Source of the DNA: Chitinophagaceae bacterium
Lineage (GTDB): Bacteria > Bacteroidota > Bacteroidia > Chitinophagales > Chitinophagaceae
Assembly: GCA_013694745.1 (NCBI GenBank)
Contig: JACDBU010000166.1
Location: forward strand, 1-32,364
Length of the DNA stretch: 32,364 nucleotides
Direction: 5' to 3'
Shown here: one piece after another, positions 228 through 10,407 of the stretch
Layout of the letters: each line of letters opens with the position of its first letter
Position numbering within the stretch: position 1 is the stretch's first letter
The notes under the pieces: model-generated
Databases searched by the model: none
What the model was told of the DNA's origin: nothing
Seen by the model: the letters and a program-made list of their open reading frames with translations, nothing else
Translations under genes and position numbers: made by a program

Positions 228-1094
228 GTGAATAAAACACTCCGCTCCACGTTACAATTACTAAGGTTTCATTTCTCTTTCTTTTTAATGCCTGTGTACT
301 GGTTTGCCTTAAGCCAGGTAAATAAAATAAATACTTGGGATGCTATCCTGGTCTTTCTTGTGCTTCATGTTCTCGTTTACCCGGCCAGCAACGGTTACAA
401 CAGCTATATGGACAGGGATACCAGCAGTATTGGTGGTTTAAAAAAACCGCTGCAGCCTACCAAACAATTATTTTACACAACGGTGATAATGGATATCGCT
501 GCCGTTACGATTAGTATATGTATGAGCTGGATATTCGCAGTCGGGATCTTTTTATACATACTGGCATCCCGTGCCTATAGTTATAGAAAAATAAGGTTAA
601 AAAAATACTGGTTAATTGGCTACTTGACAGTGGTGATATTCCAGGGAGCAGTAACTTTTTTTTTAGTTTACAATGAAACGGATATTCACCATACATTAAA
701 TGTACCATGGATAGCTACAATTGCTTCCAGTTTGCTTATCGGTGGTTTTTACCCGCTTACGCAAATTTACCAGCACAATGAAGATGTTAAGGATGGTGTG
801 CGAACGATCAGTTATAAATTGGGATATAAAGGCACTTTTATCTTTACTGGCATTATATATGCCTTAGCTTTTTGCATGATCGCCTGGCAATTTTTTTTAA
901 ATCTTGAATGGAATCGCTTTTACATTTTACAAATCTTTATGCTGCCTGTGCTCGTATATTTTTTTATATGGTTCAGCAAAGTATTAAAAGATAAAAATGA
1001 AGCCAATTTTAAAAACACGATGCGAATGAATTTGCTGGCATCAGTTTGCACCAACCTGGGATTTATAACCTTGTTAATATTATATGTAATTTGA
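228..1094 (+). CDS. UbiA-like prenyltransferase family membrane protein
   Basis: GTG start. Multiple TM segments; Asp-rich motifs NSYMDRDTSSIGG and NEDVKDGVRTISYKLG match the two UbiA motifs. Confidence 0.8.
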   Translation: MNKTLRSTLQLLRFHFSFFLMPVYWFALSQVNKINTWDAILVFLVLHVLVYPASNGYNSYMDRDTSSIGGLKKPLQPTKQLFYTTVIMDIAAVTISICMSWIFAVGIFLYILASRAYSYRKIRLKKYWLIGYLTVVIFQGAVTFFLVYNETDIHHTLNVPWIATIASSLLIGGFYPLTQIYQHNEDVKDGVRTISYKLGYKGTFIFTGIIYALAFCMIAWQFFLNLEWNRFYILQIFMLPVLVYFFIWFSKVLKDKNEANFKNTMRMNLLASVCTNLGFITLLILYVI

Positions 1095-2185
1095 GTAAGA
1101 TTGTTTCGATAGCAACCGCAGTACCGCAATACAAACATAAACAGGAAGATATTTTAACCTTCATGCAAAATGTGTATGCAATGAACGAGGTGGATAAAAG
1201 AAAATTAAAATTCCTTTATCATCAAAGTGCCATAGATACACGCTATTCTGTTTTGCCCGATTACGGCCGCTCTGCCAATGACTGGGAGTTTTATCCTGCC
1301 ACAGAAAATCTTGAACCCTTTCCCAACCTTGAACTTAGGATGAAATGGTTTAATGATACAGCACCTGCCCTTTCAGTAAATGCTATTGAAAATTGCATCA
1401 CTGAAAAAATAGATAAAAGTGAAATAACACATCTCATAACGGTTACCTGTACGGGCTTGAGTGCACCTGGCCTTGATCTTCAAATTATGGAAGCGCTGGA
1501 TCTTTCCTCAAATATTTTCAGGACCTCGGTAAATTTTATGGGTTGTTATGCAGCCATTCATGCATTAAAGCTGGCTGATGCATTTGCCCGTGAAAATAAA
1601 GATGCTAAAATTCTAGTAGTATGCACTGAATTATGCACGTTACATTTTCAGCAAAAAAATTCGATGGATAATATTGCATCAAGCCTGCTTTTTGGTGATG
1701 GTTCAGCTGCTGTACTGGTTACACATGATGACAGCCCGTTTGATGGTTTGCACATAAAGAATTTTTATTCCGAAGTTTCTTTTAAAGGGAAAAAAGATAT
1801 GAGTTGGGGATTATCTTCCTCAGGCTTTTTAATGACCTTATCAGGCTATATACCAGATCTTATAGAAGAAGATTTTAACACGTTAACCGAGCATGCATTA
1901 GAAAATGCAAAATTGGAAAAGGAAGATATTTCACATTGGTGCATCCACCCTGGCGGTAAAAAGATATTGACCGCCATTCAAAAAAGTATTGATCTGCCGG
2001 CTGAATCGCTGCAACATTCTTATAATATTTTAAAAGATTATGGCAACATGTCTTCTCCCAGCATCCTCTTTGTTTTAAGAGAGATAAGTGATGAGCTAAA
2101 AAATAAAAAGGCGAAAGCAAATATTTTCGGGGCGGCATTTGGACCGGGCCTCACAATGGAAACTTTCATCTTAACCAATGATTGA
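1091..2185 (+). CDS. Type III polyketide synthase (chalcone/stilbene synthase-like)
   Basis: TVTCTGLSAPGLD, active-site Cys in NFMGCYAAIHAL, His in HWCIHPGG, Asn in DYGNMSSPS, C-terminal FGAAFGPGLTMET. Start placed at TTG 1091, overlapping the upstream TGA, rather than ORF-track ATG 1046, which lies inside the UbiA gene. Confidence 0.9.
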   Translation: MSKIVSIATAVPQYKHKQEDILTFMQNVYAMNEVDKRKLKFLYHQSAIDTRYSVLPDYGRSANDWEFYPATENLEPFPNLELRMKWFNDTAPALSVNAIENCITEKIDKSEITHLITVTCTGLSAPGLDLQIMEALDLSSNIFRTSVNFMGCYAAIHALKLADAFARENKDAKILVVCTELCTLHFQQKNSMDNIASSLLFGDGSAAVLVTHDDSPFDGLHIKNFYSEVSFKGKKDMSWGLSSSGFLMTLSGYIPDLIEEDFNTLTEHALENAKLEKEDISHWCIHPGGKKILTAIQKSIDLPAESLQHSYNILKDYGNMSSPSILFVLREISDELKNKKAKANIFGAAFGPGLTMETFILTND

Positions 2186-2879
2186 TTACTCCAGGCGCTC
2201 ATACAAAAAAGAATTATTAGACAGTGACGATATCCCATTTGCCGACATACAGCAAAACATGGCAGAACTTGATTTCATCAACACCTGCCTGGGTGGCCAT
2301 TCCATAACACTTTCCGGGATAAAAAAATTTTTACAGAACAGGAAATCAATAACCGTATGCGAAATAGGTTGCGGAGGCGGTGACAATCTTAATGCGATCT
2401 ATAAATATTGCAGTAAAAAAATTGATACAAAACTTATCGGCATCGATATAAATGCTGATTGTATTTCCTTTGCCCGCAAAAATACACCCATCGCAAATGA
2501 AAATTTTATTGTTTCTGATTATCGCATGATCGACTTTAAAAAAAACAAGCCCGATGTTATTTTCTCTTCCCTTTTCTGCCATCATTTTAGCGATGAACAG
2601 CTGTTAGAAATGTTGTTGTGGATGCAGGACAATTCCAGGCTTGGTTTTTTTATAAATGATCTGCATCGTCATCCTCTCGCCTTCCGTTTCATAAAATTCA
2701 GCACCCGGCTTTTCTCTAAATCTTATCTTGTAAAAAATGATGCGCCACTTTCAGTTTTGCGGGGATTTAAAAACAAGGAATGGATCAGCCTCCTGCAAAA
2801 AGCTGGCATTAAAAATTATTCAATTGAATGGAAATGGGCATTCCGGTATTTGATCACGGTACTAAATGACAGAGCATAA
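2178..2879 (+). CDS. Class I SAM-dependent methyltransferase
   Basis: CEIGCGGGDNLNAIYKYC motif I and LIGIDINADCISFARKN; overlaps the PKS gene by 8 bp. Confidence 0.85.
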   Translation: MIDYSRRSYKKELLDSDDIPFADIQQNMAELDFINTCLGGHSITLSGIKKFLQNRKSITVCEIGCGGGDNLNAIYKYCSKKIDTKLIGIDINADCISFARKNTPIANENFIVSDYRMIDFKKNKPDVIFSSLFCHHFSDEQLLEMLLWMQDNSRLGFFINDLHRHPLAFRFIKFSTRLFSKSYLVKNDAPLSVLRGFKNKEWISLLQKAGIKNYSIEWKWAFRYLITVLNDRA

Positions 2880-4005
2880 ATTATATGATGCAGTTATTGC
2901 AGGAGGCGGCCTGGCAGGGCTTTCACTGGCTATCCAGCTATCTAAAGCGGGATATTCAGTAGCGCTTTTTGAAAAAGAAAAATACCCGTTTCATAAAGTT
3001 TGTGGAGAATATATTAGTCTTGAAAGCTGGGATTTCATTGAACAGCTGGGCTTGCCTTTGCACAATATGAACCTGCCGGTTATTAAAAATTTAATGGTGT
3101 CGTCACCTAATGGTAATAAGATTGAAAGTGATCTTGGGCTGGGTGGTTTTGGCATAAGCAGGTACCTGCTGGATGATGAACTTTGCAAGATCGCCAGGCT
3201 AAATGGGGCCAATATTTTTGAGCAAACAAAAGTAAATGATATACAATTTGAAAATGAAATTTTTACCATTTCCACTACCGCACTTTCTGTAAAGGCAAAA
3301 GTTGTTGCTGGCACATTTGGCAAGCGGAGTAACCTTGATGTAAAATGGTCCAGGAAATTTTTAAAACAGAAGGCAGCCCGCCTCAACAATTATATAGGCG
3401 TAAAATATCACGTAACAACCAGCTACCCGGCGCAAACAATTGCCTTGCATAATTTTAAAAATGGTTATTGCGGAATTTCAAAGATTGAAGAAAATAAATA
3501 TTGCCTCTGTTATTTAACCACAGCCACTAACCTCAGATCATGCAATAATTCCATTGCTGTTATGGAGAAAAATATTCTGCAGCAAAACCCATTTCTTAAA
3601 CAGATCTTTTCTGAAGCTGCTTTTTTATATAGCTCACCGGTAACCATATCACAAATAAGCTTTGAAAAAAAATCGCAAATAGAAAATCATGTATTGATGA
3701 TAGGCGATGCAGCCGGAATGATAACCCCATTGTGTGGCAATGGAATGAGTATGGCTTTTCATGGTAGTAAATTCGCATTTGAAACCATAGATAGTTTTTT
3801 AAAAAATGCATGCACAAGAGAACAAATGGAAGTTCAGTATTCTTTTAAATGGAACAGGCAGTTTGCAAGACGTTTGCGAAATGGAAGGTTCATACAAAGT
3901 ATGTTTGGAAAAGAATGGGTAACCAATTTTTTTATAAGAACAATCAAACATTTTCCTTATCTCATAAAACATCTTATAAAGTCAACCCACGGGAAACCTT
4001 TTTAA
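2866..4005 (+). CDS. NAD(P)/FAD-dependent oxidoreductase (geranylgeranyl reductase/aromatic hydroxylase-like)
   Basis: N-terminal DAVIAGGGLAGLSLAIQLSKAGYSVALFEK Rossmann motif; VLMIGDAAGMITPLCGNGMSMA second FAD motif; 14-bp overlap with the methyltransferase gene. Confidence 0.88.
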   Translation: MTEHKLYDAVIAGGGLAGLSLAIQLSKAGYSVALFEKEKYPFHKVCGEYISLESWDFIEQLGLPLHNMNLPVIKNLMVSSPNGNKIESDLGLGGFGISRYLLDDELCKIARLNGANIFEQTKVNDIQFENEIFTISTTALSVKAKVVAGTFGKRSNLDVKWSRKFLKQKAARLNNYIGVKYHVTTSYPAQTIALHNFKNGYCGISKIEENKYCLCYLTTATNLRSCNNSIAVMEKNILQQNPFLKQIFSEAAFLYSSPVTISQISFEKKSQIENHVLMIGDAAGMITPLCGNGMSMAFHGSKFAFETIDSFLKNACTREQMEVQYSFKWNRQFARRLRNGRFIQSMFGKEWVTNFFIRTIKHFPYLIKHLIKSTHGKPF

Positions 4006-4022
4006 ACGGTATTTTTGCATTA

Positions 4023-4424
4023 ATGAATGAGCGGCCGGTTATATTATTTGATGGGGTTTGCAATTTGTGCAACAGCGCTGTAAAATTTGTTATCGCCAGG
4101 GATAAAAAAAAATTGTTCAGCTTCGCTTCTTTGCAGTCTGATGAAGGCCAAAAACGCCTGACCGAACACCAGCTTTCATCAATGGATCTGGATTCATTTG
4201 TATTGATCGAAAACGGAAAGGCCTACACAAGATCCGACGGCGCATTGCGCGTAGCGAAGAAATTAAAAGGTGGCTGGCCTTTATTATATGCCTTTATAAT
4301 TGTTCCAAAATTTATCAGGGATGGAATGTATAACTGGATCGCCCGCAACCGTTATAAATGGTTTGGCAAACAGGATGTTTGCATGATACCCACCCCCGAA
4401 TTAAAGGCAAGGTTTTTGAATTAA
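4023..4424 (+). CDS. DCC family (DUF393) thiol-disulfide oxidoreductase-like protein
   Basis: MNERPVILFDGVCNLCNSAVKFVIARD contains the DxxCxxC motif. Start moved to ATG 4023; the ORF-track N-terminus (3849) overlaps the upstream gene. Confidence 0.85.
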   Translation: MNERPVILFDGVCNLCNSAVKFVIARDKKKLFSFASLQSDEGQKRLTEHQLSSMDLDSFVLIENGKAYTRSDGALRVAKKLKGGWPLLYAFIIVPKFIRDGMYNWIARNRYKWFGKQDVCMIPTPELKARFLN

Positions 4425-4431
4425 TGATAAC

Positions 4432-4797
4432 ATGGAAAAGAAAAAAACGGTTGTTTTTGGCGCATCTGTAAATCCTGCCCGTTACAGTTTTTTAGCCGTG
4501 AATAAACTTACCACATTTGGCCATCCTGTTGTGGCTATCGGAAAAAGAAAAGGAGAGATCGCCAAAGTTGAAATTGAAACGGAGGCTAAGCCAATTGAAA
4601 ACGTTGATACAGTAACCCTTTATTTAAATCCTGCTAATCAGAAACAATATTATAATTATATTCTTTCACTCCATCCTAAGCGTATCATATTTAATCCGGG
4701 TGCAGAAAATGATGAACTCATCAAACTCGCTAATAAAGAAGGTATTAAAACAATGGAAGCGTGTACACTCGTATTATTAAGCACCGGCCAGTACTAA
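4432..4797 (+). CDS. CoA-binding domain protein (YccU-like)
   Basis: KTVVFGASVNPARYSFLAVNKL...GHPVVAIGKRKGEI...IIFNPGAENDEL fold pattern. Confidence 0.75.
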   Translation: MEKKKTVVFGASVNPARYSFLAVNKLTTFGHPVVAIGKRKGEIAKVEIETEAKPIENVDTVTLYLNPANQKQYYNYILSLHPKRIIFNPGAENDELIKLANKEGIKTMEACTLVLLSTGQY

Positions 4798-8960: not shown

Positions 8961-8968
8961 TATCTTTG
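8961..8968 (+). promoter_or_regulatory. Bacteroidota-type -7 element (TAnnTTTG) upstream of ubiE/menG
   Basis: TATCTTTG immediately upstream of ATG 8975; no clearly spaced -33 element. Confidence 0.4.
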
Positions 8969-8974
8969 CGGCAT

Positions 8975-9718
8975 ATGTCATTGTACAAACATGATGCAAT
9001 TGTTCCTCTAATAAATTCACCTGACAGCAAGAAACAACAGGTAGAACAAATGTTTGATAAGATCGCGTTCAGGTATGATTTTCTAAATCATTTCCTAAGC
9101 GCAGGAATAGATGTTTGGTGGAGAAAAAAAGCCATTAAAGAACTTAAAAAGGTGCATCCCAAAGAAATGCTGGATGTGGCAACCGGTACCGCTGATATGG
9201 CTATACTGGCAAGTAAAATGCTTGGCCCTGTAAAGATCACCGGGATTGATATTAGTGAAGGAATGCTGGATATTGGAAAGAAAAAGGTTGAAAAACTGGA
9301 TCTCCAAAAAAAAATCGTCTTGTTAAAAGGGGACAGTGAAACAATATTTTTTGAAAAGAACTCGTTTGATGCGGTAACGGTGGCATTTGGTGTGCGTAAT
9401 TTTGAGAACCTGGAGAAAGGATTACAAGAAATATTAAGGGTATTAAAACCTGGTGGAAAGCTGGTGGTATTGGAGTTTACACGCCCTTCTTTACCCCTCA
9501 TCAAACAATTATATAACTTTTATCTTTCTGTACTTGCTCCAAAAGTTGGCAGGCTTTTTTCTAAGAATAATAGCGCTTATCAATACCTTAATGATTCGGT
9601 ACAAAAATTTCCAGAGAGAAAAATATTTGTTGAAATATTAAATAAGCTGGGATATAAAAACACTTCATGCAAACCACTGAGTTTAGGAATATGCAGTATT
9701 TATTGCGGAGAAAAATAG
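8975..9718 (+). CDS. ubiE: Demethylmenaquinone/ubiquinone methyltransferase
   Basis: DKIAFRYDFLNHFLSAGIDVWWRKKAIKEL, MLDVATGTADMAI, GIDISEGMLDIG, FGVRNFENLEKGLQEILRVLKPGGKLVVLEF. Confidence 0.93.
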   Translation: MSLYKHDAIVPLINSPDSKKQQVEQMFDKIAFRYDFLNHFLSAGIDVWWRKKAIKELKKVHPKEMLDVATGTADMAILASKMLGPVKITGIDISEGMLDIGKKKVEKLDLQKKIVLLKGDSETIFFEKNSFDAVTVAFGVRNFENLEKGLQEILRVLKPGGKLVVLEFTRPSLPLIKQLYNFYLSVLAPKVGRLFSKNNSAYQYLNDSVQKFPERKIFVEILNKLGYKNTSCKPLSLGICSIYCGEK

Positions 9719-10407
9719 CTATCCTTTTTACCGGGATAATTTTTTATGGCACCAGTAGTTTTGGACAACTCAACAATGTTGTTAACCAACCGGACCATGA
9801 TGATAAACCATATCATTTTGGCATTAACCTTGGCGTAAACTATTCACATTTTTCATTCACGCATCATCCCGAATTTTTGCAAAGGGATACGATAATGGAT
9901 GTTGAAAGCATCAATAGCCCTGGTTTGAACCTGGCCCTGTTGGTTAATATTCGCCTCGGCGAACATTGGGACCTCCGGCTGCACCCGGCCGATCTTACCT
10001 TCAGTGAAAAATCATTTCTTTATACAGAAAATTTTGGTGATGCACCAACCATCAAAAAATCTATTCAATCCATAACGGTTAGTTTCCCCGTACACCTGAA
10101 ATTTAGCAGTGACAGAATTAATAATTTTAAAGTGTATACAATTGGCGGGGTAAAATTTGATTACGACTTGGCAAGCAATGCCGGTGCAAAAAAAGCTGAA
10201 GAACTCATCAAATTAAAAAAGAGTGACTTTAGTGCCGAGCTTGGTGTGGGCTTTCATTTTTATTTCCCGGTATTTGTGTTAACGCCAGAAATTAAAGTAA
10301 GCTCGGGTTTGGTAAACCTGCACAGCCGCGATGAGAACCTCAGGTACTCAAATGTGATTGACAAGATCAATTCCAAAATGATCACCTTCTCCCTCACAGT
10401 TGAATAA
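9691..10407 (+). CDS. porT: PorT-like outer membrane beta-barrel protein (T9SS-associated)
   Basis: Signal peptide then KPYHFGINLGVNYSHFSFTHHPEFL...SINSPGLNLALLVNIRLGEHWDLRLHPADLTFSEKSF...GGVKFDYDLASN; downstream of and overlapping ubiE. Start taken as internal ATG 9691. Confidence 0.75.
   Translation: MQYLLRRKIAILFTGIIFYGTSSFGQLNNVVNQPDHDDKPYHFGINLGVNYSHFSFTHHPEFLQRDTIMDVESINSPGLNLALLVNIRLGEHWDLRLHPADLTFSEKSFLYTENFGDAPTIKKSIQSITVSFPVHLKFSSDRINNFKVYTIGGVKFDYDLASNAGAKKAEELIKLKKSDFSAELGVGFHFYFPVFVLTPEIKVSSGLVNLHSRDENLRYSNVIDKINSKMITFSLTVE

Follow-up and report, generated by a model that had tools for sequence, protein, structure and literature searches.

In Streptomyces griseus, the srsABC genes lead from an alkylresorcinol to an alkylquinone. 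Of the products of agqA-D of Actinoplanes missouriensis, AgqB, AgqC and AgqD are reportedly a methyltransferase (MT), a flavin enzyme and a prenyltransferase. As summarized in the papers that cite the original study (Awakawa 2011, ChemBioChem 12:439, as cited in PMC3569393, PMC10896814, PMC7692728, PMC4044012), the alkylresorcinol-forming type III polyketide synthase (PKS) AgqA and the products of agqB-D yield, by prenylation and hydroxylation, 6-alkyl-4-O-dihydrogeranyl-2-methoxyhydroquinones (PMC10896814, PMC7692728, PMC3569393), the O-prenylation being ascribed to a membrane-bound UbiA-like enzyme (PMC4044012). The hierridin genes (hidA-C) and planctomycete MT-oxidoreductase-PKS operons encode the PKS, MT and oxidoreductase types without a UbiA and in a different gene order (PMC8086630, PMC10896814), and a hierridin-like cluster of the cyanobacterium Raphidiopsis mediterranea has been reported with a prenyltransferase (PMC8086630). 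When planctomycete PKSs, including several encoded in such operons, were expressed heterologously, alkylresorcinols were obtained (PMC10896814). The core of PKS, MT and FAD-dependent oxidoreductase (FAD) is a widespread alkylresorcinol/alkylquinone cassette, shared by the srs, hierridin and planctomycete clusters.

Here we analyze a window, namely the whole 32,364-nucleotide stretch examined, from a 2.75 Mb draft genome of a member of the Chitinophagaceae. It encodes a type III PKS with an associated MT and FAD-dependent oxidoreductase, preceded by a UbiA homolog. The core has the same gene set and order as srsABC, which lacks a prenyltransferase; a sequence-only reading of this DNA had proposed that analogy, and it is borne out. 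The planctomycete trio that we examined shares the MT family and the GG-red-like flavoprotein family of the window. With agqA-D the likeness is one of description: as the citing papers portray it, that system also combines a type III PKS and tailoring genes with a membrane-bound UbiA-type prenyltransferase, and its product fits the functions predicted for the window operon. It differs in belonging to an actinomycete and in that its enzyme class, in the account given in PMC4044012, carries a canonical NxxxDxxxD motif, whereas the second motif of the Bacteroidota UbiA is altered. Since agqA-D, by these same accounts (PMC3569393, PMC10896814, PMC7692728, PMC4044012), makes alkyl-O-dihydrogeranyl-methoxyhydroquinones, the gene combination has a precedent, which the sequence-only reading missed. 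The kind of pathway is known, and agq, as described there, is its closest experimentally known example; what is new is a branch spread across the Bacteroidota, whose separate UbiA clade has an invariant Gln in place of one Mg-binding Asp of the second motif. A search of the open-access literature found no paper on the Bacteroidota cluster or its product. A Dyadobacter alkylresorcinol paper considered as related work concerns flexirubin genes and is unrelated.

Organization and conservation of the operon

The UbiA, PKS, MT and FAD genes lie on one strand in that order, and the conserved unit spans 228-4005 of the window (Table 1). Successive genes overlap by 4 nt (TTGA), 8 nt and 14 nt. Open reading frames and Pfam searches, in which the assignments of all six genes listed exceed the curated cut-offs, confirm the families and overlaps previously read from the sequence. 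All four enzyme types of an agq-type pathway are thus present and linked, an arrangement conserved across families. The end of a dihydrolipoamide acyltransferase gene lies directly upstream of UbiA. About 5 kb from the operon, at 8966-10407, a menaquinone methyltransferase (UbiE/MenG) gene overlaps a type IX secretion PorT/SprT gene by ~50 bases.

Table 1. Genes of the operon and its downstream neighbors, with positions in the window.
Feature	Position	Strand	Details
UbiA-superfamily membrane protein, proposed prenyltransferase	228..1094	+	288 aa, GTG start; PF01040 E 2.7e-18
Type III PKS	1091..2185	+	364 aa, TTG start; PF00195/PF02797 E 4.9e-29/1.5e-24; triad Cys152-His286-Asn319
Class I SAM methyltransferase	2178..2879	+	PF13649 E 4e-12; best NCBIfam match NF004851 (PRK06202) E 1.7e-34
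FAD-dependent oxidoreductase, proposed ring hydroxylase (flavin monooxygenase)	2866..4005	+	PF01494/PF01266; GG-red superfamily
DCC-type thiol-disulfide oxidoreductase, outside the conserved unit	4023..4424	+	PF04134
CoA-binding domain protein, outside the conserved unit	4432..4797	+	PF13380

Genome contigs were scanned with the PKS and the best 80 loci were kept, nearly all of them labelled Chitinophagaceae, Chitinophagales, Sphingobacteriales or Bacteroidetes. UbiA sits directly upstream of the PKS on the same strand in 80/80 of these best loci, followed after the PKS by the MT in about 77 and the FAD gene in about 75, several contigs ending early; nearly all show the order UbiA-PKS-MT-FAD, mostly with overlaps or short gaps. 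About 75-80 further loci, nearly all from Chitinophagaceae, encode all four proteins in this order at 46-79% identity, so the operon is not a chance arrangement. It is real and strongly conserved, and the proposal has passed the neighborhood survey in relatives that had been named as its check, a lack of conservation having been set as its refutation.

The same survey narrows the unit. The DCC and CoA-binding genes begin where the sequence-only reading placed them, 17 nt past the FAD gene and 7 nt past the DCC gene, but its extension of the unit to 4797 does not stand: the DCC gene adjoins the operon in only 6 of the best 80 loci and the CoA-binding gene is within reach in about 27-30, often kilobases off, so that we regard both as neighbors rather than members. 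The remaining neighbors of the operon are housekeeping genes.

The junction between UbiA and the PKS is itself conserved. The longest open reading frame of the PKS would start at 1046; we assign the start to the TTG at 1091, within the UbiA stop (TTGA), because the codon at this position is TTG in 74 of the 80 best relatives. This retention suggests that selection maintains a weak, coupled start. The two genes overlap in 62 of the best 80 loci, mostly by 4 or 8 bases. The sequence-only reading was right to describe UbiA as translationally coupled to the PKS.

Linkage is also kept where gene order and strand differ. Other Bacteroidia families frequently have UbiA beside the PKS but divergently transcribed, with the FAD gene on its far side. 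At two loci the MT and FAD genes are not next to the PKS and the FAD gene lies elsewhere in the genome; of nine genomes checked, most of them without FAD beside the PKS, all nine contain the FAD gene somewhere.

A UbiA clade with an altered metal-binding motif

The AlphaFold model of the window UbiA (pLDDT 95.2) has significant matches only to UbiA structures, which make up all of its top 14 PDB matches (TM 0.60-0.69), led by DGGGP synthase (7bpu) and then AfUbiA (4tq4). The protein is a member of the superfamily by fold, but it is not canonical by motif. In place of NDxxDxxxD and DxxxD it carries N58-S-x-x-D62-x-D64 and Q182-H-x-x-D186. Across the clade G, E, T or S mostly replaces the third Asp of motif 1, and Q182 is found in 98 of 99 clade sequences, the remaining one having a gap. 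This missing Asp of the second motif was overlooked in the sequence-only reading, and it weakens the family name as a guide to the donor and the metal chemistry.

AfUbiA coordinates two Mg ions through N68, D72, D198 and D202; its diphosphate contacts are R22 and K146, and Y139-S140 border the site of reaction (PMC4106721). The clade keeps equivalents of all of these except D198, which is replaced by Gln (Q182). N58, D62, D186, R13, K125 and Y117-S118 are invariant or nearly so among 98-99 clade sequences, so the diphosphate-binding Arg and Lys and the near-universal Tyr of TM4 are present; that R13, K125 and Y117-S118 correspond to AfUbiA R22, K146 and Y139-S140 is inferred from sequence alignments to ApUbiA and chlorophyll synthase.

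These departures raise the alternative that the clade transfers not a prenyl diphosphate but another lipid group, or uses another activated donor, with the second metal site altered. The AfUbiA D198A mutant binds GPP 45-fold more weakly and the equivalent EcMenA mutants are inactive (PMC4106721), which makes Q182 a real departure; the third Asp of motif 1 is also missing from nearly all members, and a MqnP/UbiA-like paralog in the same genome keeps both NxxxDxxxD and DxxxD. We nevertheless consider a non-prenyl activity unlikely. The diphosphate and carbocation site is retained, Gln can coordinate metal as the Asn of motif 1 does, the closest fold is that of DGGGP synthase, and the alignment places no Asp at the Q182 position in chlorophyll synthase either, a true prenyltransferase. 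Prenyl transfer is the most likely activity predicted from these features. A more far-reaching version, to which we give somewhat less credence still, holds that a Bacteroidota-specific clade with a rebuilt metal site (NSxxDxD and QxxxD) uses another donor or metal mechanism to make a phenolic lipid or quinone of the membrane that belongs to no described class, is common among soil Chitinophagaceae and may act as a second carrier of electrons or protect the membrane.

The polyketide synthase and the tailoring enzymes

Both chalcone/stilbene synthase domains (PF00195 and PF02797) are present in the PKS, as expected of a type III enzyme. C152, H286 and N319 are invariant in a 110-sequence alignment and correspond, when aligned, to the triad residues of Pks18 and further type III PKSs of known structure. 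In the PKS tree, the enzymes from the sampled UbiA-bearing genomes form one clade with support of 99/99 (22 rows, including one Psychrobacter plasmid copy). This clade lies next to PKS-MT-FAD trios and is separate from the flavobacterial trio, from the PKSs of f24, a family of another Bacteroidota class, and from others.

Trios of PKS, MT and FAD without an adjacent UbiA occur in Mesorhizobium, Microvirga, Roseomonas, Deinococcus, Paludisphaera, Psychrobacter and flavobacterial-type genomes. A PKS-FAD-MT set on plasmid 5 of Psychrobacter urativorans has a PKS that falls within the Bacteroidota clade, probably through transfer between phyla without the UbiA gene; a plasmid search for related UbiA gave no match. 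Three flavobacterial-type loci, from two families, contain a FAD-MT-PKS trio with a distant PKS (~30% identity) and FAD genes whose match to the window FAD family reaches E 1e-135, so that the PKS there does not share the history of the tailoring genes.

NF004851/PRK06202, a family associated with type III PKSs and the best match of the window MT, is also that of the trio MTs from Deinococcus (334 bits), Paludisphaera (232) and Mesorhizobium (67). The best NCBIfam match of the window flavoprotein is the GG-red superfamily, at 100 bits and below the cut-off of 158.8. WxWxIP is a halogenase signature and PxxYxWxFP a geranylgeranyl-reductase signature, and both are absent from all 76 window-family flavoproteins searched. 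The predicted fold is closest to flavin halogenases and aromatic hydroxylases.

The GG-red match, together with the dihydrogeranyl group of the agq product as given in the citing papers, would fit a geranylgeranyl-reductase-family enzyme that saturates the isoprenoid added by UbiA instead of hydroxylating the ring. This is doubtful: GG-red is also the best match of the flavoproteins in the Paludisphaera and Mesorhizobium trios, which have no UbiA in the cluster (two of three trios checked, the Deinococcus flavoprotein being of the aromatic-hydroxylase type), and neither the missing reductase signature nor the nearest folds agree with it. On these grounds we prefer hydroxylation over prenyl saturation.

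Homologs of the flavoprotein on Bernardetia and Hymenobacter plasmids have no PKS alongside. On Hymenobacter swuensis plasmid pHsw1 one such homolog adjoins an isonitrile synthase and a TauD-type dioxygenase, which suggests that other pathways, too, make use of this flavoprotein family.

Co-occurrence of UbiA and the polyketide synthase

The dependence of UbiA on the PKS was followed in two genome samples. Some type III PKS is present in 176 of 396 Bacteroidota genomes. With a threshold of E < 1e-90, the UbiA clade occurs in all 26 genomes that have the PKS clade of the window and in none of the 370 others (Fisher p 3e-41, uncorrected for shared ancestry). In six of the 26 the UbiA gene is unlinked, hundreds of kb away or on another contig. 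The coupling is stronger than the sequence-only reading had claimed, being perfect in the phylum sample even where the two genes lie apart.

Among 150 genomes of the window's own family, with the PKS counted from matches below 1e-70 and from one fragmented copy next to UbiA, 67 have both genes, 2 the PKS only, 0 UbiA only and 81 neither. Inside four single genera UbiA and the PKS are gained or lost together, which argues against simple hitchhiking. This distribution indicates a one-way dependence, of UbiA on the PKS, and so points to a tailoring step; the two PKS-only genomes retain MT and FAD, so that UbiA looks like a late, dispensable one. UbiA is functionally tied to the PKS and is probably a tailoring enzyme. 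The correlation of UbiA and PKS distances (0.87) is uninformative on co-evolution, as vertical descent produces the same value for MT and PKS.

Family f24 was tried as an additional UbiA-coupled group and is not counted as support, because its distant UbiA homologs are unlinked and less tightly coupled (73/92 versus 85/92 with a PKS). At eight f24 loci, a second UbiA subfamily with the same NSxxDxD/QxxxD signature stands beside different genes that are conserved among these loci.

It is very improbable that the operon is an ordinary srs/hierridin-type alkylresorcinol-alkylquinone operon with UbiA as a bystander or part of a separate pathway such as that of menaquinone: the core trio is indeed widespread without UbiA, and two own-family genomes keep it so, but UbiA overlaps the PKS start in most of the best loci, accompanies the PKS in 26/26 and 67/69 genomes even when unlinked, never occurs without it in a sampled genome, and shares this genome with separate canonical UbiA/CtaB-type paralogs.

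Proposed pathway and implications

We propose, with a probability of roughly two in three, that the four genes encode a pathway for a membrane-resident phenolic lipid, in which the PKS would form an alkylresorcinol, the MT and FAD enzymes would tailor the ring and UbiA would prenylate it. The type III PKS would extend a fatty-acyl starter with malonyl units to give the alkylresorcinol. By analogy with srs/hierridin-type clusters, the MT and flavoprotein would convert it, by methylation and hydroxylation of the ring, into a methoxy-hydroquinone, which could be oxidized to the quinone. Finally, the UbiA-clade enzyme, translationally coupled to the PKS, would act within the membrane to attach an isoprenoid, perhaps to a phenolic oxygen as the agq pathway does. 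An alkylpyrone or another ring is also a possible product.

The pathway is present in ~46% of the sampled species of its own family (69/150 by PKS count) and in many other soil Bacteroidota. The UbiA clade also offers a natural experiment on how much alteration the second Mg site of UbiA enzymes tolerates. If the proposed pathway is correct, a prenylated phenolic lipid or quinone would be a common, unrecognized membrane component of soil Bacteroidota, and the strict coupling of UbiA to the PKS would offer a clean genetic handle for finding it.
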